Source: a virus. From it: a DNA stretch of 45,188 nucleotides. The position numbers and the translations under genes were made by a program. A model generated the notes under the pieces. It had not been told where the DNA came from. It ran no database searches and saw only the letters and a list, made by a program, of their open reading frames with translations. This document shows positions 1 to 35,044 of this stretch, in pieces. The first letter of the stretch is position 1. The number at the start of each line of letters is the position of its first letter. The stretch is from the IMG/VR virus record IMGVR_UViG_3300047481_002212, positions 1 through 45,188 of that record. One strand, 5' to 3'.

Positions 1-176
1 TCGTCTCCTGTCATCTGGTTACCACCCGACTCGTAGTCGCGACGGTCTGTCGCCTGGTCGCCCATGAGCGACCAATCCACGATGGCCCTCTGACCGAGCT
101 GGACGGAGGTGTTCCTGACGACGAGGCACTTGGCCGAGCCCGTCCTGTAGTTGACTGGTTGGATCTTTGCGTACAT
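1..176 (-). CDS. Small phage protein, partial (N-terminal 58 residues)
   Basis: A minus-strand reading frame begins with ATG at 176 and runs off the left edge of the window, so only 58 residues are visible (starts MYAKIQPVNYRTG, ends near NQMTGD). A Shine-Dalgarno-like AAAGG lies 7 bases upstream of the ATG, which supports this start. It follows the fibre gene by 18 bases on the same strand and is probably cotranscribed with it. The pattern of an opening V-N-Y, a W-S-L-M segment and a Y-x-S-G-G-N-x-M-T-G-D segment recalls small proteins of unknown function found near tail-fibre genes in many tailed phages. That resemblance is from memory and gives no function. Confidence 0.6.
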   Translation of the reverse strand, partial: MYAKIQPVNYRTGSAKCLVVRNTSVQLGQRAIVDWSLMGDQATDRRDYESGGNQMTGD

Positions 177-194
177 GTTGTGACCTTTCGTTAC

Positions 195-3100
195 TTACTT
201 ATTACTGAGCATCGTGAGGATGCTAGAGATTTGATCCTTGAGTGATTGTACCTCGGACTTGAGGGAGTCGTTCTCCTGTTTGAGGCCTTTCATTGCCGCG
301 GAGAGAAGAGGTACCACGTTGTCATAGCACATGACGAATCTTCCACCCTTTGGACTCGTGAATCCTTCTTCATCAGTGTACTCCTCTATTTCAGGATCAT
401 GCAGTATTCCAACTAGTGAATCATACCCTGCCTTTAGTACGTCCTGCGCAATAAAGCCGTATTTTTTCTCTTTTTTCTCGGATGATTTCCACGTGTAGAT
501 TACCGGATTTACTTTTTCTACGAAGTCCAATCCTTCCTCGACACGTATTTTCCTCTCAATATCCTTGGCTCTGCAGTCAGATAGAGAGTTAACCTCTGTA
601 TTTGATATGATTCTGTCGCTAGCATAGATGGAGCTGTTTATGTTTTCTCCAAAGGCGGGCGTTGCTCTTCCAGATGCCGTCGTCGCATTTCTAAGCCAAC
701 CGTACGAAAATACCAAAATTGCGCTATTAATCACTCCGTTGACATGCAAGAATCCTAAGTCTGGTGTTGCGGTGCCAATTCCGACGCGTCCCGCACTAGT
801 GATTGTGACTTGATCACTATTGTTTACTCTGAATCTAATGTCCCAGCCTGTCGGTCTGTTGAGGTATAAGTTCTTGTCTGATCCACTAGCATTAGACAAT
901 ATGTTGTAGTGATCGTCAGTCGTACTTCCGTTGAGGAATATTCCTGCATAACCAGTGTATACCTCATTTATTCTGGCTAGTGTGGAACCACACATGACAC
1001 TGAGTGTTGCAGTTGGATTGGTCGTTCCGATGCCGACTTTGCCATTATATGTGATTCTCATTCTCTCTGTCAATGCCGCATCGCTCGTGGCATTCCTCGT
1101 GGAGAACGCAAGATCACCTGCTGTGTTTCCGCTGCCATCGTAGAGTAACCCCTTCACAGCAGCGAAGCCGACTGAGTTCGCAATATCACCCTGAGAGTTG
1201 GTGAAGAGGATACCTCCTCCCGAGCCCGGCGCGTTGTTATCGTGGCTGAGGCGGAGGAGGCTTCCTCTGTTTCCTGCATCAGTCAGAGCAGCTGTAGTTT
1301 GACCATTGCCGAAAATGTTAAGCCTGGCTCTGACGGTCGCAGTTCCGATTCCGACGTTCTGCGACGTGTCCACCGTCAGCGCTGTGGTGTTGTTTGTGAT
1401 GAGGTCAAGACGGTTCGACGTAAACGATCCAAGCTTGAAGTTTCCGTTGGAGTCTCCTTCGAAGTAGCCGAGATCTGCAGTCCTCGACCACGTCCAGTAC
1501 CCTGCGGCCCTTTCTGTTCCCGTGGACTTAAGGATCATTCTCGTTGATTCGTTCGCGCTTCCGGTCACGACGGTCATCGCGTAACCATCAATTGAAGTAG
1601 TCGTTCCGATTCCTACTGCACCCCTGAAGTCGAACCTAGCCCTTATGTTGCCGTCTCCATCAGAGAGAACGATGTTGTTAGAATTTATCGACGCTGTGCT
1701 CGTCCTTATGTCCAGCCCACCTGCATTGCCCGTGTATCCACCGATGAGAACGTTTTTGGTGGACGAGGTTATTGCTGATCCTGCGTTGTAACCGAATGCG
1801 GAGTTGCCTGCGCCTGTCGCATTCACCAGCGCGCTGTAACCAACAGCCGTGGAGTTCGCTTGAGTTGATATTGATCCACCGGCAAACGCTCCCAAGGACG
1901 TGTTGAAGTTTCCTGTGGAAATTGTGACTCCTGCGCCAAACCCCACAGCAGTGTTGTACGCGGATGTAGCATTGTAGAGGGCAAAATTGCCCACTGCAGT
2001 ATTTGCGCCCCCTGTCGTCGTCGTGGAAAGAGAATTCGATCCGACTGCAACGTTACCTGTTGCCGTCGATATGGACTTTCCTGCCCACCATCCGACGGCT
2101 GTGTTGTCAGCGCCCGTTGCGAGTTTGAGTGCTTCGTATCCCACGCCGACCGACCCGCTCGCTGTCGAGATAGTCGACAGCGCGTAGTATCCGATTCCAA
2201 CGTTTCCCTTCGCTGTGGTGTTCGCGTTGAGCGCGAGGGCTCCTATCGCGACGTTTCCGTCGGCTCCCGTGGTGGCATTGTTGAGTGTCAAAAATCCCAC
2301 TGCAACGTTTGCGACCTGTGAGCTCGTCGCCACGCCGAACGTGGAGTTGCCAAGAACCGTGTTCGTGAAGCTCGTCGCTGACGGTGACAATCCGCCGCGG
2401 CCGACTGTTATGTCGTTTATGAGTGCGTCGTCTCCGTGCACCACGAGCTTTCGAGACATGGAGGCTGTGCCTAGACCTACCCTGTTGTTCACTAGATCAA
2501 AAGTAAAGAGATCGGTGAGAGAGATCGAAGCCGTCGCGTTGGCCCCGCTCGTGTTGTTGCCGGCCCTCACCATCTGCAGCTTACCGGCATTGTCCTCTCG
2601 GAATCCCCACCCATATCCGTTCGCGGCGTACTTCCAGCCAGGTACTGCAGTGTCGTAGTATAGATTTCCCAAGAGAGACCTGGTGTTATTGGCGAGAGTG
2701 ATGTCACCATCGACCATCAACTTGCTTACTGATGTCGTAATAGGCGGTGTGTAATTGACACCGACAATTCCACCGACTTTATCATAAAGAAGACTTGCTG
2801 CTCCTGCAGCTGCGCCTGAATCATTATAGATAACTTGTTTGTTGCTTCCTGCAATGGGGCCTGTGGCACCTGTGTTACCCTGTACACCCTGTGGGCCAGT
2901 TGATCCTGTATTGCCTTGTACGCCTTGAGGACCAGTCGATCCTGTGTTGCCGATTAATCCCTGTGGTCCGGTGGAGCCTGTATTTCCCTGTATGCCCTGC
3001 GGCCCAGTGGCACCAGTATTTCCAGAGACTCCTTGCGGTCCTGTCGCACCAGTGTTTCCCTGCGGTCCAGTAGATCCTGTATTGCCTTGGATTCCTTGAG

Positions 3101-6100
3101 GCCCCGTGGCTCCTGTGTTACCCTGTATTCCCTGTGGTCCAGTTGCTCCGGTGTTACCTTGGATTCCCTGTGGACCTGTAGAACCCGTGTTACCAGTTAT
3201 TCCCTGTGGACCTGTAGACCCTGTCGTGCCTTGAATGCCCTGCGGCCCTGTAGACCCAGTATTTCCTTGGATTCCTTGAGGTCCAGTTGCTCCAGTATTT
3301 CCCTGTATGCCCTGCGGACCTGTAGAACCCGTGTTACCAGATATTCCCTGTGGACCTGTGGAGCCTGTATTTCCCTGTATACCTTGTGGACCAGTTGCTC
3401 CTGTGTTGCCACTTAATCCCTGTGGACCAGTCGAGCCAGTATTACCAGTTAAGCCCTGGGGTCCTGTTGAACCTGTGCTGCCTTGAACTCCCTGTGGACC
3501 CGTAGCACCGGTATTGCCTTGTGCTCCTTGGGGACCTGTGGAGCCTGTATTACCGCTTAAACCTTGCGGTCCTGTAGATCCAGTATTGCCAAGCAATCCT
3601 TGTGGGCCGGTTGCCCCAGTGTTGCCCTGTACACCCTGAGGACCTGTAGAACCTGTATTACCGGTAATTCCCTGCGGACCAGTTGCTCCAGTATTCCCTT
3701 GAATTCCCTGTGGGCCTGTGGATCCTGTATTCCCAGAAATTCCCTGAGGACCCGTAGAACCTGTATTTCCTTGGATTCCTTGTGGGCCAGTAGAACCAGT
3801 ATTACCCTGAGGACCTGTGGAGCCAGTGTTACCTACAATTCCCTGCGGGCCAGTGGCACCTGTATTTCCTTGAACACCCTGAGGACCCGTAGATCCTGTG
3901 TTTCCCTGTATTCCTTGCGGACCTGTTGCACCTGTGTTACCGTTTGATCCCTGCGGGCCAGTCGAGCCAGTATTACCCTGTAAACCCTGAGGACCTGTCG
4001 ATCCTGTGTTGCCACTTAATCCTTGTGGACCGGTTGAACCGGTATTTCCTTGAACACCTTGGGGTCCAGTAGATCCTGTGTTTCCTTGAGGTCCTGTTGA
4101 ACCTGTGGTGCCTTGAAGACCTTGTGGGCCTGTGGACCCAGTATTTCCTTGCAGCCCTTGAGGTCCTGTAGAACCTGTGGTACCCTGAACGCCCTGAACT
4201 CCTTGAGGACCAGTTGCACCGGTATTTCCAGATAAACCCTGCGGACCGGTCGAACCCGTGTTTCCTTGAATGCCTTGAGGACCAGTTGATCCCGTATTGC
4301 CAGATAAACCCTGTGGTCCTGTGGAACCTGTGTTACCAGTTATTCCCTGCGGTCCAGTCGATCCGGTATTGCCTACTATGCCTTGAGGACCTGTGGAGCC
4401 CGTGTTTCCAGACAGACCCTGCGGTCCTGTAGAACCAGTGTTACCTTGAATGCCCTGCGGACCGGTAGATCCGGTGTTTCCATTTAAACCTTGTGGACCA
4501 GTTGCTCCAGTATTCCCTTGAACGCCCTGAGGACCCGTTGCGCCTGTGTTACCGCTTAATCCTTGCGGACCGGTAGAACCAGTGTGTCCCTGAAGACCAG
4601 TAGACCCAGTATTTCCAGTTATACCTTGCGGTCCAGTCGAACCTGTGTTTCCAACTATTCCTTGCGGTCCTGTGGCTCCTGTGTTACCAGTTATGCCCTG
4701 AGGTCCTGTCGATCCAGTATTTCCCTGTACGCCCTGCGGACCAGTAGCACCGGTGTTTCCTTGAACACCTTGTGGCCCCGTGGCTCCCGTAGCACCTGTG
4801 CTACCTCTAGGACCTGTCGATCCTGTATTGCCAAGCAATCCTTGCGGGCCAGTCGATCCGGTATTTCCTACTATTCCTTGTGGACCAGTAGAGCCAGTAT
4901 TGCCAGTTATGCCCTGAGGGCCTGTTGAACCCGTATTTCCAGTAATTCCTTGTGGGCCAGTTGCTCCTGTATTTCCAGCTACACCTTGTGGACCCGTAGA
5001 ACCTGTATTACCAGTTAAACCCTGTGGACCTGTGGCACCAGTGTTGCCCGATAGTCCAGTTGCTCCTGTATTTCCCTGTATTCCCTGTGGTCCTGTGGAC
5101 CCTGTGTTACCTAATAATCCTTGCGGACCAGTGGCTCCAGTGTTACCAATTATTCCTTGCGGACCGGTGGATCCTGTATTACCTTGAACTCCCTGCGGTC
5201 CAGTGGAGCCAGTGTTTCCAGTCAAACCCTGAGGACCTGTAGAGCCTGTGCTTCCTACAATTCCTTGTGGGCCTGTGGATCCTGTATTTCCCTGTATACC
5301 TTGCGGTCCTGTTGCACCTGTGGTGCCCTGAACTCCTTGTGGTCCAGTAGAGCCGGTGTTTCCTTGCAGTCCTGTAGAACCTGTGGCACCTTGTAAGCCT
5401 TGCGGACCCGTGGAGCCAGTGTTTCCTTGAATACCTTGAGGTCCCGTGGCACCTGTATTTCCTTGAGTTCCTTGTGGGCCTGTTGAACCAGTGTTGCCGA
5501 GCAAACCTTGTGGACCAGTAGCTCCCGTGTTACCATTTAATCCCTGCGGTCCTGTAGAGCCTGTATTTCCAAGTAATCCTTGTGGGCCTGTTGCTCCGGT
5601 GTTGCCTTGTATACCCTGCGGACCTGTAGATCCTGTATTCCCAGAAATTCCTTGAGGACCTGTGGCACCAGTATTGCCAGTTATACCTTGCGGTCCAGTG
5701 GCTCCCGTGTTACCACTTAATCCTGTTGAACCCGTGTTTCCTTGAACGCCTTGAGGACCAGTAGAACCTGTATTGCCAGTCAGACCTTGAGGTCCTGTTG
5801 ACCCTGTATTACCGGAGATGCCTTGGGGTCCTGTGGAACCTGTGTTTCCAGATGTTCCCTGTGGTCCTGTTGCACCTGTATTTCCTTGAGGACCTGTCGA
5901 TCCCGTGTCACCTTGTACGCCTTGTGGACCTGTAGCACCCGTGTTTCCTGTCGGACCAGTCGCTCCAGTGTTACCTGTAATTCCTTGAGGTCCAGTCGAG
6001 CCAGTGTTGCCGAGCAAACCTTGCGGACCAGTGGAACCTGTATTTCCAGAAATTCCCTGAGGACCTGTCGATCCAGTATTGCCCACTATGCCTTGCGGTC

Positions 6101-7076
6101 CTGTTGCACCTGTGGTTCCCTGAACTCCTTGCGGTCCAGTAGAGCCGGTGTTTCCAATTAAGCCCTGAGGTCCAGTCGCACCAGTATTCCCCTGTATGCC
6201 CTGTGGTCCTGTGGAACCTGTTGATCCAGTGTTACCGCTTAATCCTTGTGGACCTGTCGATCCTGTGTTACCAACTATTCCTTGTGGGCCAGTTGATCCG
6301 GTATTTCCTTCGATGCCCTGCGGTCCAGTAGAACCTGTATTGCCAGTCAGACCCTGAGGACCTGTCGCTCCTGTGTTTCCCTGTATTCCTTGCGGTCCTG
6401 TTGCACCTGTGTTACCACTTAATCCCTGCGGGCCTGTCGATCCCGTATTTCCTTGAATACCTTGTGGGCCTGTCGCACCTGTGCCTCCAGTCGATCCAGT
6501 AGGCCCCGTAGGTCCTGTGGCACCAGTCGCTCCCGCAGAGCCAGGTGATCCTGCAGTTCCAGTCGCTCCAGTAGGACCAGTAGGACCTGTGGCACCAGTT
6601 GCTCCTCCACCACCTCCCCCAGACGACGTGCTGAGAACAGTCCATCTTGTCCCGTTCCAAGCTAGTGTAGTACTCTCGTAGTTTGTAGTCAGTGTTTTTG
6701 TAGCAGAACTATCGATTAAGACACCAGACTTCGGAGATTTAATCTGAATGTTTTTCGATCCTGCAACACCATTAAAATCTTTTACGTATATTGTTTGGCC
6801 GGTTTTAGGATCCTGCGGAAGAAGCAGGATTGACGTTCCTGATCCACTCTTTACAATGACGTTGAGTATTGTAGCGGAAGAATTTATCTGGGTATTTTTC
6901 CCAGGTGTTACTTCTATTGTTTCAACGCTTTGAGAAAACTTTCCCGTTAGCTGAAAATCTGATGGAGCGTCTGGGACTCCTATTTGAGTGTCCGTGACGT
7001 GTATTGACTTCTTGACTTTGACTCCACCTTCTACGACATAAACTACTGTATCATTAGGTTTCTTTGTTATTGACAT
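195..7076 (-). CDS. Giant collagen-like tail fibre with S74 self-cleaving chaperone tip
   Basis: A 2293-residue trimeric fibre protein, probably the host-binding fibre. Residues 1-150 form a beta-rich head ending in a W-N-G-T-R-W-T-V motif common in phage fibre attachment domains. A Gly6 hinge follows. Residues about 157-1408 are uninterrupted Gly-X-Y triplets with a 12-residue period (G-N-T-G-S/A-T-G-P-Q-G-x-x). Residues about 1585-1790 are YadA-head-like repeats (N-x-A-V-G-x-x-A/S-L). Several G-x-V-G-I-G-T repeats follow to about 2130. The C-terminus has the S74 intramolecular chaperone signature: S2166-D-C-R2169-A-K2171, then G-F-I-A-Q-D-V and a terminal coiled coil. In this family the chaperone trimerises the fibre and cuts itself off at the conserved Ser, releasing here about 128 residues. 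The ATG at 7076 lacks a clear Shine-Dalgarno. The segment encoding residues about 1473-1976 is much richer in GC than the rest. Confidence 0.93.
1150..2660. other. GC-rich block inside the fibre gene
   Basis: Hand counts over whole 60-base lines give 65% GC at 1201-1260, 58% at 2041-2100, 53% at 2281-2340 and 67% at 2521-2580. Flanking parts of the same gene give 42% at 421-480, 45% at 961-1020, 43% at 2701-2760 and 38% at 6901-6960. The block corresponds to residues about 1473-1976, covering the segment after the collagen shaft and the YadA-head-like repeats. The borders are approximate. A segment with different composition inside one open frame suggests replacement by recombination. Confidence 0.7.
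2853..6606 (-). repeat. 36-bp-period coding repeat for the collagen-like shaft
   Basis: About 3.75 kb of the fibre gene is a tandem repeat with a dominant 36-base (12-residue) period, about 100 units. Each unit encodes four Gly-X-Y triplets, usually G-N-T, G-S-T or G-A-T, G-P-Q and G-x-x, where the last triplet is most variable (IQ, LS, VQ, IT, LL, IV, LN). Units of 9, 6 or 3 residues break the 12-residue rhythm (for example the G-P-T-G-N-T insert and the doubled V-Q-G) but never the triplet phase. Adjacent units encoding identical peptides use different synonymous codons, so DNA identity between units is much lower than peptide identity. Many apparent reading frames on both strands here are by-products of the repeat lacking stop codons. 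Confidence 0.95.
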
Positions 7077-7101: not shown

Positions 7102-9759
7102 TCATGGTACTGTCTGTGTCAAGGTCAAATTTGTGTTCACGAACTGTGCTATTTCGGATTCTTGCCTGTGCTTCGCGATTCCGTCGAAGTACGGCACAGA
7201 CGATGTGACTTCCGTGCTGAGGTTCTGTGAGACTGTTTCCTTTGGCAAGACATTTACCGTGTAAATATCGCCTATTCCGTTTGCGTTCGCTCGATATTGT
7301 TCTTTGACGAAACGCACACTAACTGCTGAAGCGCCCAACGTATTTCCTCCCCCAGAGATGTTCCATCTAGAGTCGACTTCTTCATTGTAGCCCAGCGTAC
7401 TAGAAGAATTACTTGCGTCTACGACTGTCGTAGCTTTCTTATCTGTTGGACTAAGCCCTGTATTTATAAACTTGGTGTAGACTCTCTGCTCTAACATGTC
7501 TCTGAACTGTCCGAACTTGTCCCTTCTAAATACTGCTTTGCTGTTAGTTGGAAGACCATTATAGAGTCCATACTTCCACCCTCTTATTACAGGAGACACG
7601 CCAAAATTGAGACCTTTGTATATGTCAGATGTCCTATTTTGAACTTCTGTCTCGTCCCATGACGCAGTTGCAACTCGATAAGTCGGATCCGCTCTATTGT
7701 CGACGACTACTTTTCTGAAGTGAGGATAGTTGTTTCCTCCCATCGTCTTTTTAGATGTGTCGGTTGGGAAAGAACTGGTGTCGTAAACGTAGAATTCAAG
7801 ATTATCCACGGCGACAAAGTAAGGTTGGTTTGCAGAAGGTCCAGATCCGCCATATTCATACTGGAAGACCAGCCTGTACTCTCCTGATGGCAAAGGATAC
7901 TCTTCCGATCCAGGATATCCCATAGCTCCGTAACCTGTGTACGACCCATGAGTCATCCAGCTGTAAGTCCCGCCTGTTACGTCAGAAGATCCGGGTCTAA
8001 CCGTGCCTGTTAGTTCTGTCTGAGTTATAGGGTAATTTGGATCTATGAAGAAAGGTGAATCTACGTTGTCGTTTGTTGTGATGAGAACAGGTCCACCTGC
8101 TCCGAACCCAGCAGAGCTAGCTTGAGACCTGAAGCCTGGTGATGCTGAGAAGTAAGCGTTGAAGTAGTCCCCTGGGTCGTCCGTCACCATTGAAAAACTG
8201 AAGTTCAGCGTCCACGGACAAGATGAAGTTATGTCCAGTGCCATGAAAGAAGAACCGCCTGCGTCACTTATTCCTCCACCGTTAGACGCAACTGTATCCG
8301 ACACTAGTATCAGGCTGTTTGAAGTTGGAGTCCAGTAAACACCTCTCGCATTATTTGGAGGAGTCAAATATGACAAGTAGTTGTGTGTCACCCCGCCTAT
8401 AACAACAGTGCCTTCTTTTGTTTGAACACTCCAGCCTGCGCCGTTCGTGTTGTCTATTGTGTCCCAGTTCAGTTTTATTATAGCATCGTCATACTCGGGT
8501 ATGTTTTTTGCAAGGGTCGCATCGGACACACTCTCAAAATTTTGTCTGTACTGAAATTCCAGCGCTGAAGAATCAAAAGTTCTTTCGGCGAAAGTCATGG
8601 TGTTCATGTCACCGAAACCAAACAAGAACTTTACGATGTCGTTAACACCAGAAGAGCCTGTCAAGAACTCGCCACCAGGATCAGTTATTGACGGACTGTA
8701 GGATGCTGTCGTGATGAAGTTGTGATCTCCCCTCTTGTTAAGATAGACTTCTGAGGGAATGAGGAGAGAATAACCGTATTCTCCATCTAGATTCGCCAAC
8801 TTAAATGACGTGGGAATAACCGTTATTCCTCCAAGACTTCCATTCAGTTTATTACCGACGCTTTGCCTCAAAGAATTTCTTGCACTGCTATTTGTCTTCA
8901 ATATAGACTGCGGCAATTTACCTGGTAGGAATGGCCTGAACGAAGATACGGGTTTGGCTGTGCTGTTTATTGTCAAATTTTTGACTTCAAAGCTCTTAGA
9001 TCCTGATATTTCCCACAAATCTAGGTCTAGATTGTATAGCTGCTTTGTTTCTATTAGACTGACGTCGCATCCTAAAATCACAGGACTGATGCCGAGACTT
9101 GAGTTAAAGTAGGTGACACGTTCTTGCGGCTTATACTTGCTCTCAAATGGAAAAGACCAGGTCCAGTCATTGTTCACTACTGGGTCGTTTGAATAACCAA
9201 GATTGGTTCTGTCACTCTCTGGATAGTTGAACACCATGTTCGCTATCACAGAGGGACCTGTGCTTCCTGAAAGTGTATTGTTATATGGACTCAAAAGTGT
9301 TGGATTTGCACCATTTTGAAGAATCCAAGGAGTTGTTCCGTCTGCCGAAAAGCAAGTGTTTAAGTCTGGGAGACAAGAGTCATAGAACCTCTCATCTTTG
9401 TCGTAACATTGAGATATTCTGTAAGACGTTGTAGAAACTCTCGACTCCCAGGAAGTCAATCTGTAAGACAGGAGAGGATTGACGTTGACAGCATCAGAAC
9501 CATAAGTCGAAGGAAGAACGGGAAAGATGTCCGACAAATACTTGCTGAAAAGTCTGCCTCGAGTGCTTATGCTGCTCGTGACTAGTCTCTTCGTAGTATC
9601 GAAAGGAAGAGTAGCATCGACCAACATCGACCCAGTTATAAAATCATCCTGCATCGTACCGTAGAAAGATGCAGCGTACGAGATATCGAACTGGTCTAGG
9701 ACGGGATCGTTACCTATGACATCTTTTATTACCTCTGTGAAGACTGACTGTGTCGTCAT
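7102..9759 (-). CDS. Large virion structural protein, tail/fibre connector (unknown)
   Basis: This 885-residue protein has no family that I recognise. It is rich in Ser, Thr, Gly, Asn and aromatic residues, with no signal peptide or membrane segment, as expected of a beta-sandwich virion protein. Residues about 500-680 look like a jelly-roll segment ([14 protein letters not shown] and later [12 protein letters not shown]). The start ATG at 9759 overlaps the stop of the preceding gene as ATGA, implying translational coupling. It lies directly upstream of the collagen-like fibre gene in a run of late virion genes, so a baseplate-to-fibre adaptor or second fibre subunit is plausible, but that is only inference from position. 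Confidence 0.75.
7461..7468 (-). promoter_or_regulatory. Candidate T4-type late promoter (TATAAATA)
   Basis: Read on the minus strand this is an exact TATAAATA, the consensus recognised in T4 by the gp55 sigma factor with gp33 and the sliding clamp. A gp55-like gene is present in this window. The site lies inside the upstream 885-residue virion protein, about 385 bases before the fibre start at 7076, so it could give the fibre an extra late transcript. One 8-base match inside AT-rich coding DNA can occur by chance. Confidence 0.3.
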
Positions 9760-11441
9760 GGAATGTACCTATTTCCGTTCTGGACGTAGGAACCATAGAA
9801 AGTTATGTTTATGGAACCGGTGTTAAATTGGACGTCGTGTCCTGGTAAGAGATTAGTCGGTATTGAGTTGTAGTAGGAAGATGAAATGAGAGTTGGTAAT
9901 CCGTATGTTCTGGCATTTGGATTGGCCACAGTGTCTACGTTTATCTTGAAATTTTTGTGTGCAGGCCTTGTCTTCGACACACTTAAAACGAGTTTCTCTC
10001 CGGGATTGATCAAGTATGGAGACTGCCTCTCTTCTCCTAAAAATTTGTCGGAGAAGAAATATAGATACAGCGTTCCATAGGATCTTCCTGTCAGGATGCT
10101 CGAGGATATTCCGTTGTATATTGCTGTTCTCAAAGTCTCATCTTGAACATAAAATTCATTTTTTATGTTTCCATTTTGCAGTAACTGCTCTGAGTCGATA
10201 GATGTGTATTCTCCACCAAACACAGACCCGCCTGAGGGAGAAAAGCCTGTCTGTCCCCTACCGAACGGATCTATTCCGTAAAGATACATTGCGTCTGAAG
10301 TCGTAGCCTCTGATATTGTTGTGTATTCTTGCGAAAGTCGATTAAGAAGCAGTTTGTCAGCTGCTATTCCTCCTAAAGATCCGGTCGCGACAGCAAATGC
10401 TATTGTTGCGACTTTACAGCCGTTTGATATCAAAGCCTCAGACCTCATTGTGAGACTTCCTGTGAAAAAATTATTTGCATCAGGAGTCACTATGGTGTCC
10501 AAGCTTCCTGTTCTCAATCCAACCCTATTGAAGTAATAGAGATTTGTTGACGCCGCGAGATCCGGAAAAATTTCGTTTGTATTGATAGAACCGCTTGTGT
10601 CGTTAAAGTGTGTTATCCTGCTCTTGCATATCAGGTCTCTTATCGACCCTGTTCCGTAATTCTTTTGCGACATGAGAGCGACAGTTATGCAAGGTCCACC
10701 TTGATCGAAGATCAATGAGATTGGAACTGCACCTCCCATCGATCCTGCACCGTCCAGACTGTAATCACCGTAGGACGAAGTCATAAGTGAGAGCGTTGTC
10801 TTGTCACTAAACCAACCCTTTCCAAAGCAGAAAGGAAGTTCAAAAACAACCTTCTCTATCAGAAAAGGTTTGTCTATCGGAAGCGTGAATCCTTCTTCGA
10901 TAGAGGAATTGTAGGCAGAATTTCTCTGTGTGGAAGCCGGATAATCTCTTGCCATGAGATCTGCTTGTGCAGAAGCGTTTAGAGAAGCTCTTGAACTAAA
11001 GTTCCAAGACTCTTCTGCTATTTTTTGATTAGGACTTGGGACTAGACCTGAATTCGTCCTGTAGATCGGAAGGCTTCCCGATGCGAGCGCATTTCCCTTT
11101 GCGTCAAACAGTATCGTGTCTTCAACAAATGAGCTACCGCTGTTGTAACCTGCTCCGGTGAACACTGCCACCTGCTGAAAAGGACCTGTGTGGTCTCCTA
11201 AAGAACGTGTAGGAATGTTCCACATTCCACTAGAAAAGTTGAAGTAGTAGATGCTGCTAGAGTTCGGCAGCATCCTCGTCTTGTTTCGAACATCGAAAGA
11301 TACTTTTATCCTTTCTTTGCTTCCGAGACCATTGGAAAAATCTCCTGGTGTCGTTCCGAAAGCGTCGATAGAACCAGTAAGATAAAAAGGATCGGAATTT
11401 CCTACGTCATTTAACGAAGTTTCAGAAAACGGTTTGATCAT
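9756..11441 (-). CDS. Virion structural protein (unknown)
   Basis: A 561-residue protein starting at ATG 11441 (M-I-K-P-F-S). The upstream gene stops at the same place (TGATG, one-base overlap) and a GGAAGG lies about 8 bases before, which fits this ATG better than the TTG one codon earlier. No family is recognised. Composition is Ser/Gly/Thr/Asn-rich with many short beta-type segments and no membrane helices. Near the C-terminus a segment around S-P-Y-L-I-N-P-G-E-K-L-V-L-S-V-S-K looks like the edge of a beta-sandwich. It sits between a nidogen-like protein and another virion protein in the baseplate/fibre cluster, so a peripheral baseplate or fibre-network part is likely. Confidence 0.72.
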   Translation of the reverse strand: MIKPFSETSLNDVGNSDPFYLTGSIDAFGTTPGDFSNGLGSKERIKVSFDVRNKTRMLPNSSSIYYFNFSSGMWNIPTRSLGDHTGPFQQVAVFTGAGYNSGSSFVEDTILFDAKGNALASGSLPIYRTNSGLVPSPNQKIAEESWNFSSRASLNASAQADLMARDYPASTQRNSAYNSSIEEGFTLPIDKPFLIEKVVFELPFCFGKGWFSDKTTLSLMTSSYGDYSLDGAGSMGGAVPISLIFDQGGPCITVALMSQKNYGTGSIRDLICKSRITHFNDTSGSINTNEIFPDLAASTNLYYFNRVGLRTGSLDTIVTPDANNFFTGSLTMRSEALISNGCKVATIAFAVATGSLGGIAADKLLLNRLSQEYTTISEATTSDAMYLYGIDPFGRGQTGFSPSGGSVFGGEYTSIDSEQLLQNGNIKNEFYVQDETLRTAIYNGISSSILTGRSYGTLYLYFFSDKFLGEERQSPYLINPGEKLVLSVSKTRPAHKNFKINVDTVANPNARTYGLPTLISSSYYNSIPTNLLPGHDVQFNTGSINITFYGSYVQNGNRYIP

Positions 11442-12790
11442 CAAAACTTCCTTCCGAAGTCTACAAGAGTGTCATAGAAGACCGAGTCAACTAGACCTGG
11501 TCCTATGCTTCTTGTTACTTCAAGACTTCCTGATTGATATAGTTGATTGATTGCAACAGCTTCTTCAAAGTTATAACTCGTCCTGTAGCTGACCGGTATC
11601 ATCGTGGGATATTGTACTACCTGACTGCTACCACTGCATATCATAGTCTTTCTGTCGTCGAACAAAGAGACGTCATTCCTCATGATTGAGGACGAGTCTC
11701 TCACGGCAACTATCGTCCTGTTTTGTGTTCGTCTATTGACAGGAGGTAAGAAGTTGTAGATCGCAGTCATGCCCCTACGTCCAGGCCAATGTACTGCTGG
11801 GTCTAAGTTACAGCTGTATGGAGCAACTCCTATGTCATTGTTTAAGTTGACACCCGTGTCTGTGTAACTTGAGTTATAGACGTACCCACCGTTGACGTAC
11901 TTGGATCTTACGTCATCTCTGTAGCCTAACCCTTCTGAGAAATCTCTAAATTTCCATCCATTCCAATTGGCAAAAATACCCATTGTTGCACCGACAGTTC
12001 CGCTGGGTGCAGCACCAGAATATGGCGGTCTGTAAGACAGCGTTCCGACAAGGTCTCCTTTGCTTTGGTACCTCAGCTGGATCGATCCATTTTCGAAGAT
12101 TGCAGCTTCAAACTTGAGACGACTCATCTCGTAGTTGGACGTCGTCAGGCCTGATATGACAGACCATTTGATAACAAAATACTTGCCTTGATGATCTTCA
12201 GCTCTTGCATAGCTCACAGCGTGTTCGGATGCGTCCCAATCCGTTGTGTTGTCAGGTTTGTCTAATCCATAGATCAGCTTGTTCATTGTCGCAGCTGTTT
12301 GCGCAGGTATTGCTGAAGACCCAGCTTGTACAGCCTGATAGTCTGCGAAACCTGTATTCATCTGATCGTGCCATGCAGCAATTAGGACGTGATTGTTTTG
12401 TCCTGTAGGTCCGAAAGATGATGTTATTTGAGAGTTGCTTCGAACAGAAACTTTATAGAGTTGATCGACCTCTAGCTTATCGTCATCTGGTGACGAATAG
12501 GGTGACGAATAAGATGGATCTATGAGGACTGCAATTCCATATTCTGAAGCTGCAACTTTTGTGTAGTTGACTCCGCTGAAATTGAAAGTAAATCCTAAAT
12601 CAACCCACCGGAGTTGCCCAGATGTCCAATTTCCCGATCCATTTCCGACTCCTGCAGCGTCAGGCCATGCTGTAAATCTCTTCTTGTCTATTTGGAATAG
12701 CGCGTTGCTTGGCAACACTGACTTCATCAAGACGTAATCTTCGAATCGCCTCGAGGGCGGAGTTCTCTTGGATTTTGGCGAAGCAGACAT
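11441..12790 (-). CDS. Virion protein with nidogen-like beta-sandwich
   Basis: A 449-residue protein starting at ATG 12790, which shares its A with the stop of the preceding gene (TAATG). After a basic N-terminus (S-K-R-T-P-P-S-R-R), residues about 60-110 read W-V-D-L-G-F-T-F-N-F-S-G-V-N-Y and A-A-S-E-Y-G-I-A-V-L. This matches the nidogen-like pattern (a F-x-F-x-G-x-x-Y strand followed by a strand ending in x-G-x-x). Further strands follow: H-V-L-I-A-A-W-H-D-Q, Y-F-V-I-K-W-S-V and F-E-A-A-I-F-E-N-G-S-I-Q-L-R-Y. Such domains are usually extracellular adhesive modules. Within a phage baseplate cluster it is probably a surface-exposed wedge or fibre-network protein. The nidogen assignment is from pattern only. 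Confidence 0.7.
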   Translation of the reverse strand: MSASPKSKRTPPSRRFEDYVLMKSVLPSNALFQIDKKRFTAWPDAAGVGNGSGNWTSGQLRWVDLGFTFNFSGVNYTKVAASEYGIAVLIDPSYSSPYSSPDDDKLEVDQLYKVSVRSNSQITSSFGPTGQNNHVLIAAWHDQMNTGFADYQAVQAGSSAIPAQTAATMNKLIYGLDKPDNTTDWDASEHAVSYARAEDHQGKYFVIKWSVISGLTTSNYEMSRLKFEAAIFENGSIQLRYQSKGDLVGTLSYRPPYSGAAPSGTVGATMGIFANWNGWKFRDFSEGLGYRDDVRSKYVNGGYVYNSSYTDTGVNLNNDIGVAPYSCNLDPAVHWPGRRGMTAIYNFLPPVNRRTQNRTIVAVRDSSSIMRNDVSLFDDRKTMICSGSSQVVQYPTMIPVSYRTSYNFEEAVAINQLYQSGSLEVTRSIGPGLVDSVFYDTLVDFGRKF

Positions 12791-24454: not shown

Positions 24455-24751
24455 CTAAATTTCTTCATTTTTGATCGTTTCGTCAAGCACTTTGGCAACT
24501 TCAAGTACTGACATTTTCGCAATCGCTATGTCCTGAACGAGAGACCGTACGACGGGTTCGTCAGAGAAAAGCTCTATTTTTGTCTTGCTTTCTATGATTT
24601 GATGTTGCAGCTCTAAAGAGTCCAAACAGACCTCTACAGCCTCTTGAAATTCCTCTATCTTTTCCAAAAGTTCTATGTTTTTTTTGACGCTAACATAGAG
24701 ACCCGTGAGGCTCCCAACGAGCAGTCCAGATAGAAGCAACGACAATATCAA
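24455..24751 (-). CDS. Small N-terminal membrane-anchored coiled-coil protein
   Basis: A 98-residue protein. Residues 1-22 form one hydrophobic helix (I-L-S-L-L-L-S-G-L-L-V-G-S-L-T-G-L-Y-V), followed by an amphipathic Glu/Leu-rich helix that probably makes a coiled coil. The start is TTG at 24751: it overlaps the stop of the preceding glycosyltransferase gene (TTGA), an AAGGA sits 9 bases upstream, and no ATG occurs before residue about 80. Topology suggests an inner-membrane anchor with a cytoplasmic or periplasmic coil. The function is unknown. Its position between a glycosyltransferase and the sigma factor does not decide between a lysis role and membrane recruitment of enzymes. Confidence 0.65.
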   Translation of the reverse strand: MILSLLLSGLLVGSLTGLYVSVKKNIELLEKIEEFQEAVEVCLDSLELQHQIIESKTKIELFSDEPVVRSLVQDIAIAKMSVLEVAKVLDETIKNEEI

Positions 24752-25932
24752 GTCAAAAGATCCTTTGTGACTTCATTGTACATTTTTATCACTGATTCGA
24801 TTGAGTACTTGTCAACAATTTTTTCTTGTAAGTTCAAAGCCCATTCCTTGGGTATAGAATGACCAGACTTAAATTTCTGTATTTTTCGCTTGAAGTCTTC
24901 TTCCGATGGATGAGCCCACTTTGAACCCTTCATGAAAATCTTGTTGTCTACTCTAGAAGCATGTATCTCTTGAACTTTGTAGTCCACGTCTATGTATTTG
25001 CCGTGTGACAGAAAGTCCGTGTGTCCTGACCATCTCGTTGCTATTACTGGGAGTCCAGAAGCAGCGGCTTCCAAAATGGGTAGACCGTATCCCTCGCCTC
25101 TCGTCAAAGAAACTAAAGCTTTTATCTGTGGGTGATGATAAAGAGAAGAGATTTCTTCGTCTGACATGTCACCATGCAATAGATGGACTTTTGGGAAAGT
25201 ACTCTTTCTCACTTCTGAGACTAAGTTCTCAAAAGTTTGCTTGACCAATTTTTTGTCGATCTTTGTGTGTCTTCCTGAATTTGTTTTTATGATTATTCCT
25301 ACTGACGGGTCGTTCTTGAAGACCTCACAAATCCACTTAACTGTATAGAAGATGTTCTTTCTTTCATTTTCTGGATTGTTGCCAGTGATTTGGCCCACTA
25401 TCAAGAAGTTGAAAGGGGTCGAAAATTTCATCTTGTCTACATTGGTCTCTATGTTCTTTCCTATCTTTGTATTGTAAGACTCAGGAACAACATGAAGTGG
25501 TACTCTCACTTCGCCAGAAGACTTGAGACAATTTGCCGAGTGGTTTGATGGAACTATTACCATTGACATTCTGTTGCAAGCTGTGATCCACTCAGGATTG
25601 CACCTGTCGGTCTCCACACCTGCTGTTATTCCAATGTTTACAGGAGACATTGAAGTATCCCACTCATTAGGAAGCTGTAATTGGACCGTTGCATCGTATC
25701 GTCGACCCTTTGGGTCGATAGTTTTTTCCATTATCTTTCCGATGAAACCGTCTTCAAGACTGCTATTGATGAGCCAAGGAGTGTCGCCCCACGGCAGTGC
25801 CTGGTACTCTACATCAAATCTACTTTCCAGCCACCTCGCTATTTGTCGTGCGTGTACTCCGTACCCGGACTGTGTCAAGACGGGCCCTCTGAACAACACC
25901 TTCTTTAAGTTGGAAAAATTTGTGAAAATCAT
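24748..25932 (-). CDS. Glycosyltransferase, GT4-like (GT-B fold)
   Basis: A 394-residue protein from ATG 25932, which overlaps the upstream stop as ATGA; an ATG six codons earlier exists but lies inside the previous gene. The N-terminus has a strand then R-G-P-V-L-T-Q-S-G-Y-G-V-H, the usual acceptor-side loop. N-I-G-I-T-A-G-V-E-T-D and V-I-V-P-S-N-H-S follow. The donor-binding E-x7-E is E280-G-Y-G-L-P-I-L-E, followed by A-A-A-S-G-L-P-V-I-A-T. This group transfers sugars from nucleotide-sugar donors with retention. The next gene upstream is another GT4, suggesting sequential addition of sugars to one product. Donor and acceptor cannot be read from sequence. Confidence 0.88.
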   Translation of the reverse strand: MIFTNFSNLKKVLFRGPVLTQSGYGVHARQIARWLESRFDVEYQALPWGDTPWLINSSLEDGFIGKIMEKTIDPKGRRYDATVQLQLPNEWDTSMSPVNIGITAGVETDRCNPEWITACNRMSMVIVPSNHSANCLKSSGEVRVPLHVVPESYNTKIGKNIETNVDKMKFSTPFNFLIVGQITGNNPENERKNIFYTVKWICEVFKNDPSVGIIIKTNSGRHTKIDKKLVKQTFENLVSEVRKSTFPKVHLLHGDMSDEEISSLYHHPQIKALVSLTRGEGYGLPILEAAASGLPVIATRWSGHTDFLSHGKYIDVDYKVQEIHASRVDNKIFMKGSKWAHPSEEDFKRKIQKFKSGHSIPKEWALNLQEKIVDKYSIESVIKMYNEVTKDLLT

Positions 25933-27182
25933 AGCTCCATAACCTTCCACTTATTTTCTTCAACCGACTTCCACTTCTCAATTGTCTTTTCAATAGATGT
26001 GTCCCAGTCTGCTACCATCTTCTTCAAACTGTATTCTCTCCTAGCTCTTTCCATTGCCTTGTTGCCGAGAGCTTCTCTCTTTTCAGGTCCCATCTCGTAC
26101 ATCTTCATGAATGCATCCGTTGTTGTCTTGTGCGAAACAAAGTCTTCATATATGAAGGGAACCATGTGGTTACCAACCATTGTTCTAACCTCAGGGTCAA
26201 GTCCTATTCCAAACTGTTCACCTGTTTCAGGATCTTCTACCTGTCGAGTGAGACCTCCTGTCTTGAGAGCAATGATAGGCTTTCCACACATCATCATTTC
26301 AAGCGTTGGAAGTCCAAATCCTTCATTGCAACTCCTGTTTATTATTGTGTCGCAGGAGTTGTAGAGGGCTTTCATTTCATTGAATCCAATTCTGTCTTTG
26401 GAAAACATAACGTTGTCTTTAACACCAAGCATCTCTATTACTTGATAGAGGTTCGTTCCTTCTTGGTCAAGAGGATCGGTGTGAAGAACGAGTGTAGCCT
26501 TACTGTGTCCATGTTTCTTCTTTAAGTCTTCTATAAACATCTTCCAAGAAACGAGAATGTCGCTCGGCATCTTTCTTCTTGCATTTCTAGAAACATAGAG
26601 ACAAGTGAAATGGTCAGCTCTTGCTTCTCCCATGAGACTCTTCTTAAATTTCAGAGACTCTTCTTTGGGAATTGGATGATAGAGATCTTCAGGAACGGCA
26701 TGAGGTACGTAGTTTGTCCTATCCGGGAATCTTTCCTTAACCATTTCATATGTGGGATAATTGATACAGTTTATCAGATCACAAGACTCGTAAAGCGGAC
26801 TGTTAAAATCTGGCCACGGAGGATTATCCCAGAGGTGCCAATAGACGATTGGACAGATCTGATGTATCTCATCTTCCATCTCCCATGCCCAGATGAAGAA
26901 TCTTGGGTCGGTAAATAGAAAGAGGGCGTCTGGTTTTACTTGGGCTAAAGTCTTTCGCAAGAGTGCCTTGTCGCCAAAACCGTTTGTTGGCTTGATGATA
27001 AAGTCTGGGTTGACAACCACTGTCTCGTAGTTGTCATGCTTTATTGCACCACCAAAGCACTTAAAGCTGTATTTTCCTGTATTTACTAATCCACTGATTA
27101 ACCATCTCGCCTGTGTACCCACTCCGGAAGTCGAAAGTGGATGGTCCGACAAGAATAAGATGTTTTTCTTCTGATTCTGCAT
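25929..27182 (-). CDS. Glycosyltransferase, GT4-like (GT-B fold)
   Basis: A 417-residue protein, ATG at 27182 with AGGG shortly upstream. Features are N-I-L-F-L-S-D-H-P-L-S-T-S-G-V-G-T-Q at the N-terminus, the aromatic stretch Y-W-H-L-W-D-N-P-P-W-P, Y-V-S-R-N-A-R-R-K-M-P at the domain junction, and E-G-F-G-L-P-T-L-E at about residue 287, followed by M-C-G-K-P-I-I-A-L-K-T-G-G. The signature is that of retaining GT-B enzymes. A 45-base gap separates it from the nuclease gene upstream, so this may be the first gene of a sub-operon with the next glycosyltransferase, the membrane protein and the sigma factor. Substrates are unknown. Confidence 0.88.
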   Translation of the reverse strand: MQNQKKNILFLSDHPLSTSGVGTQARWLISGLVNTGKYSFKCFGGAIKHDNYETVVVNPDFIIKPTNGFGDKALLRKTLAQVKPDALFLFTDPRFFIWAWEMEDEIHQICPIVYWHLWDNPPWPDFNSPLYESCDLINCINYPTYEMVKERFPDRTNYVPHAVPEDLYHPIPKEESLKFKKSLMGEARADHFTCLYVSRNARRKMPSDILVSWKMFIEDLKKKHGHSKATLVLHTDPLDQEGTNLYQVIEMLGVKDNVMFSKDRIGFNEMKALYNSCDTIINRSCNEGFGLPTLEMMMCGKPIIALKTGGLTRQVEDPETGEQFGIGLDPEVRTMVGNHMVPFIYEDFVSHKTTTDAFMKMYEMGPEKREALGNKAMERARREYSLKKMVADWDTSIEKTIEKWKSVEENKWKVMEL

Positions 27183-27227
27183 TGTCCCTATATTACCTAA
27201 AAACGAAAAGTTGTAACAAAAGTTTCG

Positions 27228-28040
27228 CTAAGTGCAGTGTTCTGTGCCTTTGTACTCGCAGTAGGTGCAAGAGTCACGATTCTTCAGAGCCACACCGCGC
27301 TTGACAGAAGTGATCATGTTGCTGACCACCTTGAGCGACTTCTTAATGGGAACTTCGCCCATGGAGACAGAGAACAGCTCACAGTGTTGTCCTGGTTTCG
27401 CAGACTTCTTGAGGATGGCGAAACCACACCGAATGTTCTTGAAAGGCACCTGCGGATTCTTCTGATTCCAGTAGTTCTTGTATAGTGCCAACTGCGCCTT
27501 CACCATCTCATCCGAACGTTTCTCCCGTCTCCAGCCATTGGCCGAAGTCTTCCAGTCGATGATCCAGTAGAGATCTTCTCCGCGTTTGCCTTTGCACTTG
27601 ATGACACCGTCAATGAATCCTTTGAAAGCATGGGGATGACCTTCTACCGATTCATATAGGGCATGCTCAGCATCCACAACAGTCCAGTCAGGAAATTCCT
27701 TATCTAGGAAGGCAGGAACCTCTAGAAGAATTGCTTCAGACTCGGCCTTGGCAACCTTTAAAGCTTTTTCTGAGAATTCTTCCTGGTCACTGTGCTTGGC
27801 CCAGGCCTCATCGAGGGCATCGTGGCACAACTTCACGTCCATCTCGCGAGTGAGTAAGTACTTCTCGCAGGAAGCGTGAACTGCTGTACCAAACTCAAGC
27901 ACGGGTGAGGGCTTGAAGAAATCGATCTTCTTCACGTGGGTGAGGTGGTGTCTGTAGGAACAATCCTTCCAGGTCTTCACCTCCGAAAAAGATACGTGCG
28001 GTTTGCCTGTTGGAAGTACTTGGAATTCAGTTTCTGACAT
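27228..28040 (-). CDS. PD-(D/E)XK nuclease, Cas4/RecB-like with Fe-S cysteines
   Basis: A 270-residue protein, ATG at 28040. It has the Cas4/RecB nuclease layout: S-x-S-E-V-K-T-W-K-D-C27 near the N-terminus, G-T-A-V-H-A at about 50, F-I-D-G at about 143, I-I-D-W-K-T at about 161 (catalytic D and K) and a Q-L-A-L-Y motif. C258-T-Y-C261-x7-C269 at the end, with C27, matches the four-cysteine 4Fe-4S arrangement of Cas4/AddB nucleases. The role is probably exonucleolytic processing of DNA ends in phage recombination or replication. It is isolated among sugar genes, with untranslated gaps of 45 and 36 bases on either side. It is also richer in GC (62% at 27781-27840, against 43% at 26581-26640 in the next gene), suggesting separate acquisition. 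Confidence 0.85.
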   Translation of the reverse strand: MSETEFQVLPTGKPHVSFSEVKTWKDCSYRHHLTHVKKIDFFKPSPVLEFGTAVHASCEKYLLTREMDVKLCHDALDEAWAKHSDQEEFSEKALKVAKAESEAILLEVPAFLDKEFPDWTVVDAEHALYESVEGHPHAFKGFIDGVIKCKGKRGEDLYWIIDWKTSANGWRREKRSDEMVKAQLALYKNYWNQKNPQVPFKNIRCGFAILKKSAKPGQHCELFSVSMGEVPIKKSLKVVSNMITSVKRGVALKNRDSCTYCEYKGTEHCT

Positions 28041-28058
28041 GTTAGTTTTGATACTAAC
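28041..28058 (-). promoter_or_regulatory. Stem-loop abutting the nuclease start codon
   Basis: GTTAGT and ACTAAC form a perfect 6-bp stem with a 6-base loop directly before the ATG at 28040. The space where a Shine-Dalgarno would sit is taken by the hairpin and no purine-rich site is evident. Such hairpins at start codons serve as translational operators in T4-type phages, but here the role is only inferred. Confidence 0.45.
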
Positions 28059-28076
28059 ACGTGAAACCGCAACAGT

Positions 28077-28991
28077 TCAAGTTGGCTTCTTTGACACGGC
28101 TCTGCCTGACATCTTCTCCCAATCTCTGTGTTCAGGTTGCCGCACCTCGAGGTTCTTGTCCCATGCGGCAGTGAGAACTTTTGGATCCACATTGTTCTTC
28201 TTGGCAACATCGATCATCGCGTTTATGTCCTTGGGGAAGCAATGACCGCCATAGCCTCTCGCACCGTCAGGCCCTGGTACGTTCCAATGACTCGTCCCTA
28301 AACGAGTGTCATACTTTGCGTATTCAACGACTTTGTCGTAGTCAACGTCTAGACCTGACGCATCCAGTGCCTCACAGATCTGTGCCATCTCGTTAGCAAA
28401 TGCAACTTTAACAGTGAGGAAGTTGTTTGTGAGATACTTGACCATCTCGGCCGTAGTAGAAGAAGTCTTGACGATCGGAACTTTAGGAAAGGCAGTCTGA
28501 AACACTTGCTTTACTACATTTAACCAGGGACGAGGTCCACCTAAAACTATCCTGTTCTGATTTCTCATGTCGTCTATCGCATTGGCTTCAGTAAGGAATT
28601 CAGGGTTAAAGACTACATGTAGACCACGCTGAGAAAACTTTTTGTTCCAGGCTTCCGTTGATCCAGGTGACACAGTTGATTTTACTACTGCTATCCGCTC
28701 TCCCGGAATCAAAGATAGATTTTCTAAAACTTCTTCAACAATGCTGAGGTCTGCTGATCCGTCTTCATACATGGGCGTTGGAAGACACACGAAATAGACG
28801 TTTGAGAAGTCATCCATGTTTTCTGCACATGTCACCAGATCTCTCAGACACTCTGGTCTGTATTCGTGTGATCCTTTTGCGTACTTCCCTGCTTTGTCAT
28901 ATGCCAAAACTCTGAACCCATGTTCAGAAAAAACTGTGGTAAGAGAACCTCCGACAAAACCCTGTCCTATGACTGCTATTGTCTTCTTCAT
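28077..28991 (-). CDS. UDP-glucose/GDP-mannose 6-dehydrogenase family, short form
   Basis: A 304-residue protein, ATG at 28991 overlapping the upstream stop (ATGA). The NAD site is G-Q-G-F-V-G-G near residue 9. V-K-S-T-V-S-P-G-S-T and N-P-E-F-L-T-E-A-N-A are the family motifs, and the catalytic Cys is C251 in G-G-H-C-F-P-K-D. These enzymes oxidise the C6 alcohol of a nucleotide sugar to a uronic acid using two NAD. Typical bacterial members have about 390-450 residues. Here most of the third, nucleotide-sugar-binding domain is missing and the protein ends soon after D-W-E-K-M-S-G-R-A-V. It follows fcl and gmd in one coupled operon. Whether UDP-Glc, GDP-Man or another sugar is the substrate cannot be told. 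Confidence 0.85.
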   Translation of the reverse strand: MKKTIAVIGQGFVGGSLTTVFSEHGFRVLAYDKAGKYAKGSHEYRPECLRDLVTCAENMDDFSNVYFVCLPTPMYEDGSADLSIVEEVLENLSLIPGERIAVVKSTVSPGSTEAWNKKFSQRGLHVVFNPEFLTEANAIDDMRNQNRIVLGGPRPWLNVVKQVFQTAFPKVPIVKTSSTTAEMVKYLTNNFLTVKVAFANEMAQICEALDASGLDVDYDKVVEYAKYDTRLGTSHWNVPGPDGARGYGGHCFPKDINAMIDVAKKNNVDPKVLTAAWDKNLEVRQPEHRDWEKMSGRAVSKKPT

Positions 28992-29899
28992 ATTCCTCTG
29001 ACATTCGGATATTTCTTCACTAAGAAATCGATCGAAGATTCAAGCCCTGACGACAGCGAGGTGTACTTGACTTCACACCCGAGGTCGCGCAACTTCTTAT
29101 TGCTAGTCGGCTTCCGGAACTGACCTTCAGGCTTGCTCGTGTCGAACTTGATCTGACCCTTAAACCCAATGATCCGTCCGATCTCTCGAGCTACATCTCC
29201 GATGGAGACTTCTTCAGTGTTTCCGATGTTGACAGGATCAGGTTCGTTATAGTTCTCTGTGCACCACCAGATCACTCTTGCGGCGTCTTCTGAGAACGTG
29301 AACTCACGTAGAGGTTTACCGGAACCCCATATCGTGACATCGGTTGATGCTAGGTGGGCCTCGTAAAACTTGCGAATAAGCGATGGGATTACATGCCCGT
29401 TGTTTAAGTCGTAATTATCGTGAGGTCCGTAGAGGTTGTTGGGAACCACAGTGATAAAGTTGCATCCCCACTGTTGCCTGTAGGCCCGAGAACCCACATC
29501 GAGCATCCTCTTGGCATAGGCGTATCCGTAGTTGGAGAGATGTGGAGGTCCGCTGTGGAGTTGATCTTCGGTGATGGGATAATCAACATATGCTGAATCT
29601 GGATAGATGCATGTGGAGAGGATGGAGACGAGTTTCTTTACGTTATCTACTCTTGCGCCTTCTAGAACGTTGTTGGCGATGTTTATGTTGTCTCTATAGA
29701 ATTCTCCGACGAAGTCTGTGTTTCCTTTCACACCTCCGACTTTTGCTGCCGCATTTATCCAGACATCATTGTGTTTCGATGTCGGTATGGTATTTGTCAA
29801 ATCTCCTGAAGACCTTGTGTATTCGAACACATCATCCTTGCATGTTTTTACAAGAGCTGTTCCCAGAAGTCCCTTTGATCCAAAAACTGTTGTCTTCAT
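28988..29899 (-). CDS. fcl: GDP-L-fucose synthase (epimerase/reductase)
   Basis: A 303-residue protein, close to the usual length, ATG at 29899 (ATGA with gmd). The short SDR opening [10 protein letters not shown], then [15 protein letters not shown] near residue 95, Y-G-Y-A-Y-A-K with the catalytic Tyr and Lys, and [11 protein letters not shown] are all fcl/WcaG hallmarks. It converts GDP-4-keto-6-deoxymannose to GDP-L-fucose with NADPH. Being directly downstream of gmd, it completes the two-step route from GDP-mannose. Its 3' part is richer in GC (55% at 29041-29100) than gmd (38% at 30481-30540), so the pair may not share one recent origin. Confidence 0.92.
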
Positions 29900-30864
29900 T
29901 TCGATTCTCTTTCTAGATCTGAAAGGTACATCATCTTGATCAGATCTTCAAAAGTATGTCTCGGTTTCCAGCCCAAGACTCTTTGTGCCTTTGATGAATC
30001 TCCTCTGAGATGAGGAACTTCGTGAGGTCTGTAGTATCGAGGATCAATGTCGATGTACTTTTCATAGTCAAGACCTGCAAGACTAAACGCTACTTCTACC
30101 AGTTCCTTGACTGAGTGACACTCACCTGTGGCTATTACGTAGTCGTCAGCTTTCTCCTGTTGCAACATAAGCCACATTGCTTCAACATAGTCACCGGCAA
30201 ATCCCCAATCTCTGACTGCACTCAAATTACCAAGCTTTAATTCCTTCTGTTTACCCAGTTTTATTCTTGCTGCTGCTCTCGTCACTTTTCTAGTGACGAA
30301 AGTTTCTCCTCTTCTTGGTGACTCATGGTTGAAGAGTATTCCGCTAGAAGCATGCATTCCATAACCAATCCTGTAGTTCCGCACTATGTTGTGAGAAAAT
30401 AATTTTGCGCAGGCGTATGGAGATGCAGGAGTCATTCTTGTTTCTTCATTCTTCAATTCATCAAGATTGTCTCCGTACATTTCTGAAGATGAAGCTTGAT
30501 AGAACTTACAGTCTGGTACAACATTTCTACAGGCTTCTAGGAATCTCATTGTTCCCATTGCTACAGTGTCCACTGTCTCTTCGGGTATGTCAAAGGAAGT
30601 TCTGACGTGTGACTGTGCTGCGATGTTATAGACTTCGTCAGGTTTTGTGTCTGACAAAATTTTATAGAGCGATCCAACATCATTCATCGACGAGTAGACC
30701 ATCTTGAAGTCAGGGTTGTCGTACAGATGGTCTACATTCACTGTATTGATAACAGACGACCTTCTCTTCGTGCCTATGACTCTATAGTTCTTTTTCAGAA
30801 GCAACTCTGCAAGATACGATCCATCTTGACCGGTCACTCCCGTTATAAGTGCAGTTTTTTTCAT
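29896..30864 (-). CDS. gmd: GDP-mannose 4,6-dehydratase
   Basis: A 322-residue protein, ATG at 30864. It is a clear extended [14 protein letters not shown] at residues 8-18, K-R-R-S-S (NADP preference), [17 protein letters not shown] and P-Y-A-C-A-K with the catalytic Tyr and Lys, plus F-V-T-R-K-V-T-R-A and R-D-W-G-F-A-G-D-Y. It makes GDP-4-keto-6-deoxy-D-mannose from GDP-mannose, the precursor for fucose, rhamnose, perosamine or colitose. With fcl next to it, GDP-L-fucose is the most likely product. GDP-mannose itself must come from the host, since no phosphomannomutase or guanylyltransferase is in the window. Confidence 0.94.
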
Positions 30865-30886
30865 GTGCTTCCTGGTAACTGCAAAG

Positions 30887-33913: not shown

Positions 33914-33915
33914 TC

Positions 33916-35043: not shown

Positions 35044-35044
35044 T

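Follow-up and report, generated by a model that had tools for sequence, protein, structure and literature searches.

Codon usage and related fibres suggest exchange of the distal part of a giant phage tail-fibre gene

The locus and its fibre gene

The stretch of DNA analysed here, referred to as the window, is the virus fragment IMGVR_UViG_3300047481_002212 of IMG/VR, 45,188 nucleotides long. A giant tail-fibre gene lies near its left end. Among its neighbours are genes with baseplate-wedge matches and one with a weak match to gp25, under the Pfam cut-off. The locus is therefore likely to represent the tail module of a phage with a contractile tail. A second contig, 3300042197_003228 (G001), is identical to positions 1-30540 of the window (30,540 bases, including the whole fibre gene) and extends 11.5 kb past its left end. 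The features that concern us, with GC content at third codon positions given as GC3, are the following.

1..176, minus strand: start of the downstream small gene (106 amino acids in the overlapping contig); GC3 0.76; 70-74% identical in the records L118 to L120
195..7076, minus strand: giant tail-fibre gene, 2293 amino acids, open in frame; PHROG tail fibre, Pfam Collagen and Peptidase_S74
6615..7076, minus strand: N-terminal head, aa 1-154; GC3 0.33; kept in five syntenic fibres at 40-47% identity
2853..6614, minus strand: collagen stalk, aa 155-1408; about 416-418 uninterrupted Gly-X-Y triplets; GC3 0.30
2727..2852, minus strand: collagen-exit linker, aa 1409-1450; GC3 low, 0.24; joint of the first codon-usage step; homologous linker in relatives
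1083..2726, minus strand: GC3-rich distal segment, aa 1451-1998; GC3 0.61; probable exchanged tip
1722..2309, minus strand: NxAxG repeats of 16-17 amino acids each, aa ~1590-1785; YadA-head-like by pattern only; predicted regular beta repeat
765..1046, minus strand: cassette between two VGIGT motifs, aa 2011-2104; 57-60% identical to the fibres of L018 and L021
420..581, minus strand: Peptidase_S74 chaperone domain, aa 2166-2219; Pfam PF13884

The Gly-X-Y repeats match PF01391 with an E-value of 4.7e-182, and the S74 domain near the C-terminus scores 39.2-43.4 bits against a cut-off of 22. The distal part of the fibre (aa 1451-2150) is beta-rich and the C-terminal end after S74 is coiled-coil-like. 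The stalk consists mostly of a 12-amino-acid unit and would be about 360 nm long if folded with collagen's rise.

What are the repeats in the tip? The initial annotation called them YadA-head-like. There are indeed about ten NxAxG-type units of 16-17 amino acids, but Pfam YadA_head finds no match in the tip, even at an E-value of 0.1. In a monomer model the repeat region has a strand every 16-17 residues, with pLDDT of about 70-85; a fold search with this model gave no PDB match at E<=0.001, and a sequence search of the PDB with the tip found nothing.

Beyond the window, the overlapping contig (G001 / L002 9024-17002) carries a small gene, a polynucleotide-kinase-like gene, PTH2, a patatin-like phospholipase, tRNA-Ile and tRNA-Leu. 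It also encodes a second fibre of 1196 amino acids, which matches Pfam YadA_head (E 1.1e-5). Within the window, positions 24748-41479 hold glycosyltransferases, a UDP-sugar dehydrogenase, a WbqC-like gene and other apparent sugar-metabolism genes, a putative phage-borne glycan island. Inside this lower-GC3 cluster lies a PD-(D/E)XK nuclease gene with a GC3 of 0.60 (27228-28040), which could have been inserted separately or could be a native relic.

Codon usage changes abruptly at the end of the stalk

A GC-rich block had been described in this gene at about 1150-2660, flanked on both sides by sequence of 38-45% GC. In 150-base windows, total GC is 49-61% from about 1126 to 2700, 39-47% at 376-1050 and 39-43% in the N-terminal head (6676-7050). 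A distinct block does exist, and it is clearest at third codon positions. The contrast with the right flank, however, was wrong for most of its length: only 2701-2850 dips (43% GC), and the collagen stalk at 2853-6614 is mostly about 50-58% GC. The high total GC of the stalk comes from the first two codon positions, through glycine and proline; at the third position, GC is only 0.30. We therefore rejected total GC as a measure, since the stalk reaches a similar value for amino-acid reasons.

By GC3 the profile along the gene is stepped, not smooth. Segmentation gives a GC3 of 0.30 before the block, 0.61 within it (1083-2726) and 0.45 after it. With the amino acids fixed and the codon usage of the structural genes as reference, the expected GC3 of the tip is 0.394 and the observed value is 0.605. 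This excess of +0.21 over the structural genes corresponds to z = 10.6, in units of the standard deviation of same-size windows in those genes. The best amino-acid-controlled model with two borders places them at aa 1451 (position 2726, support 2630-2780) and at aa 1999 (position 1082, support 962-1352). The borders first proposed, 2660 and 1150, thus differ from the best estimates and lie within their support intervals. The log-likelihood gains of the two steps are 55.7 and 12.8, where the null reaches at most 7.0 and 8.7, and a null of homogeneous codon usage is rejected at both borders (P<=0.005 each, 200 simulations). The border at 1082 is the weaker of the two, with an interval 130 codons wide. 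Six other long structural genes contain no comparable step, their gains being only 1.3-4.5. A third step was sought in the S74 end (best at aa 2248) and was not significant (P<=0.17). The S74 end and the head, said at first to share a lower composition, are both lower than the block; they are not alike, with GC3 of 0.43-0.48 and 0.33, respectively.

Is a step of this kind a property of fibre tips in general? We scored the distal 200 codons of 43 collagen-containing fibre reading frames taken from the window, its relatives and other viral contigs. The amino-acid-controlled GC3 excess averages 0.000 (standard deviation 0.11) and exceeds +0.25 in just three fibres: that of the window (+0.28), that of L020 (+0.33) and that of L170 (+0.37). 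As most of the 43 lack the step, it is not a generic property of fibre tips. The 931-amino-acid collagen reading frame of L170, with the largest excess of the 43, is a candidate for a similar exchange.

Fibre segments in syntenic relatives have conflicting relationships

Used as a query for close relatives, the head of the fibre returned the overlapping contig alone; the relatives discussed here were obtained through upstream genes. A 1169-amino-acid tail gene has many relatives in IMG/VR, at 60-73% identity, and no match among named phages, so that no host is suggested.

In L017, L018, L019/L020, L021 and L023, the gene after the homolog of an 885-amino-acid protein opens with the head found in the window and continues into a shorter collagen run. 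These runs count about 18-41 triplets (51 or more in one record that is cut short), against some 416-418 in the window. Aligned with these fibres, the window's fibre does not diverge uniformly: the heads are 40-47% identical, whereas after the linker the records that reach that far (L018, L020, L021 and L023) are only 26-28% identical to the window.

The relatives disagree in the same manner among themselves. The heads of L018 and L023 are 47% identical, their linkers 90% and the sequence that follows 82%; for L018 and L020 the head gives 64% and the part beyond the linker 39%. L018 and L021 are 82% identical in the 1169-amino-acid gene; the gene that precedes the fibre is about 45% identical, the fibre itself 90% and the gene following it 99%. 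Their fibres show a sharp drop in similarity at a linker-like QFN motif and a recovery by about aa 1080, and GC3 in L021 is raised in the later part of the stretch that diverges from L018. Segments of a single gene thus have conflicting relationships among relatives, and the identities of fibre and backbone disagree. L020 has a GC3 step of its own at aa 226, which is 21 residues past the end of its collagen and within the same linker.

For the homologs of 9756-11444 and 7102-9759, identity between L018 and L021 is only 42-45%, with flanking genes at 70-99%. Judging by these identities, the two pre-fibre genes may be another fast-changing or swap-prone spot.

Candidate joints at the collagen-exit linker and VGIGT motifs

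Where would such cassettes be joined? The border at 2726 coincides with the point where the conserved collagen-exit linker ends. The border at 1082 precedes S74 by about 150-165 residues and adjoins the VGIGT motif at aa 2014. The neighbouring cassette, aa 2011-2104, is 60% identical to a mid-fibre cassette of L018, and the similarity ends at both VGIGT motifs. The S74 end is only about 31% identical to that of the one lineage fibre found to have an S74 domain as well. The initial annotation had proposed recombination between conserved collagen and S74 segments. Distal exchange and a step at the collagen-exit linker agree with that proposal; the joint that it places at S74 is not supported, because the step falls upstream of this domain.

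Tests of the association between motifs and the borders of similarity blocks gave mixed results. Taken over all loci, the test was dominated by collagen matches and gave no enrichment. In a second test, with near-duplicates still in, VGIGT alone was not enriched, only a combined motif set. In the version that we use, restricted to the lineage, with collagen masked and a distance of <=8 residues, 23 of 96 distinct block ends lie near a VGIGT motif (8.3 expected) and 16 of 101 block starts do so (8.4 expected), counts that may be inflated, since a conserved VGIGT can attract alignment ends and the similar L018 and L021 were both counted. The signal of QVxFN at block starts in this lineage-only test is partly an artefact of masking the collagen that stands just before the linker. 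The VGIGT motifs as joints are therefore suggestive, not proof. We propose, tentatively and at somewhat less than even odds, that the collagen-exit QVxFN linker and the VGIGT motifs are preferred crossover points in this lineage, that cassettes change position and pass from one fibre gene to another, and that codon-usage steps record recent moves.

Discussion

The best explanation of these results is that one or more distal cassettes of the fibre were exchanged by recombination with another fibre gene; we put the probability of this reading at about 0.8. Exchange is well supported because of the sharp step at the linker, the disagreement between head and distal part in the syntenic relatives, and the step that L020 has in its own linker. 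That recombination was the cause in this particular gene we infer from these patterns.

The fibre runs from the head through the collagen stalk and the linker to the beta-rich shaft and tip cassettes, the S74 chaperone and the coiled coil. Residues 1451-1998 have a codon-usage history different from that of the stalk before them and of the S74 end after them. In the arrangement we propose, the collagen-exit linker would be one joint of the exchanged cassette or cassettes and a VGIGT-type shaft motif the opposite one. The stalk would hold the tip away from the tail, S74 would assist trimer folding, and the exchangeable cassettes would contact the host surface. Receptor contact by the distal cassettes is suggested by the known architecture of fibres (head at the baseplate, then stalk, cassettes and S74) together with the variability of the cassettes. 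Their exchange may serve adaptation to host variation.

The strongest rival concerns the direction and source of the exchange, not exchange itself. The tip may be native to the GC3-rich part of its own genome, the AT3-rich stalk and head having been acquired, or the exchange may have taken place within the lineage's fibre genes. We regard this as quite possible, though somewhat short of an even chance. In the overlapping contig the genes downstream of the fibre have a GC3 of about 0.57-0.80 (0.76 in the small gene right after it), and L024, L119 and L120 show a similar contrast, with lower GC3 in the tail genes and higher GC3 in many genes beyond. For the codon usage of the tip, the downstream genes are a better fit than the structural genes by a small margin only, and its score is about equal under the downstream genes and the second fibre. 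Against a recent paralogous donor, the second fibre is only 22-23% identical to the tip. Because the downstream genes are as GC3-rich as the tip, either direction is compatible with the data: a GC3-rich pool within the lineage may have supplied the tip, or it may be the AT3-rich parts that arrived later. The tip could also be native to the downstream GC3 regime, or old. Searches with the tip of viral contigs, phage records and genome contigs returned no donor or close relative, the best protein matches being 32-46% identical; a missing donor does not exclude exchange.

Could the step have arisen with no exchange, through domain-specific selection on translation or mRNA structure in the tip? 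The stalk's amino acids are repetitive and its GC3 is unusually low, so selection could vary along the gene. Yet the distal excess averages zero over the 43 collagen fibres, with three above +0.25, and GC3 falls back in the S74 end, which is not repetitive. We consider selection an unlikely cause.

Still less probable is an assembly chimera, in which reads of two phages were joined at conserved motifs. Repeats and shared motifs do favour misassembly in metagenomes. Here, however, the second contig, which may or may not be an independent assembly, is identical across both borders, and the fibre's reading frame is unbroken over 6.9 kb. Finally, amino-acid composition alone, as in Gly/Ala-rich repeats, is what raises total GC in the stalk, but as the whole cause of the difference it is refuted by the gap between expected and observed GC3 in the tip (0.39 and 0.605).

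Exchange of distal cassettes thus remains the preferred reading. It means that, within one phage gene and without any close relative, a swapped tip can be signalled by an amino-acid-controlled step in codon usage, with its probable joints named. Should these joints prove general, automatic delimitation of the cassettes of giant fibres would become possible, as would their comparison with host range.

How does this fibre compare with known systems? Fibres with an S74 intramolecular chaperone (PF13884) resemble it in having S74 near the C-terminus, followed by a coiled-coil-like end. S74 in the window is a chaperone domain by its Pfam match; a chaperone role or autocleavage is at most predicted.

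Pelagiphage tail fibres, in the portion of the account that we draw on (PMC3909814), have a conserved N-terminus and a variable C-terminus, one of them with a YadA domain. They are like the window's fibre in pairing a conserved N-terminus with a variable, repeat-rich C-terminus of YadA type, a likeness that in the window's tip is one of pattern only; they differ in their T7-like head, and that portion does not describe a collagen stalk.

The mosaic adhesive trimer (MAT) fibres of Bdellovibrio are long and have beta-rich shaft and tip modules, in S74 and non-S74 groups (Caulton et al. 2024, PMC10769870; PDB 8OND, 8OML, 8OJN). Bd2133 and Bd1334 have common N-termini (75% identity) and exchanged C-termini (PMC10769870). 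The likeness to the window lies in the modular beta-rich shaft, in S74 and in a weak sequence match: the region aa 2001-2293 matches the solved shaft 8OND with an E-value of 7e-5 (phmmer) and 8OJN and 8OML more weakly, over short stretches only. MAT fibres are bacterial, whereas the window encodes a phage fibre with a collagen stalk of more than 400 triplets, known from its sequence and a monomer prediction.

Mosaicism of phage fibres is itself already known, and the fibre of the window is a well-supported example of it. The phage classes that show contemporary mosaicism include tail fibres and tail spikes, as judged from shared fragments of >=50% identity (Smug et al. 2023, PMC10684548). Many blocks in the lineage of the window reach this identity. 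What is added here, for one uncultivated lineage, is that the candidate joints are narrowed to the collagen-exit linker and the VGIGT motifs.
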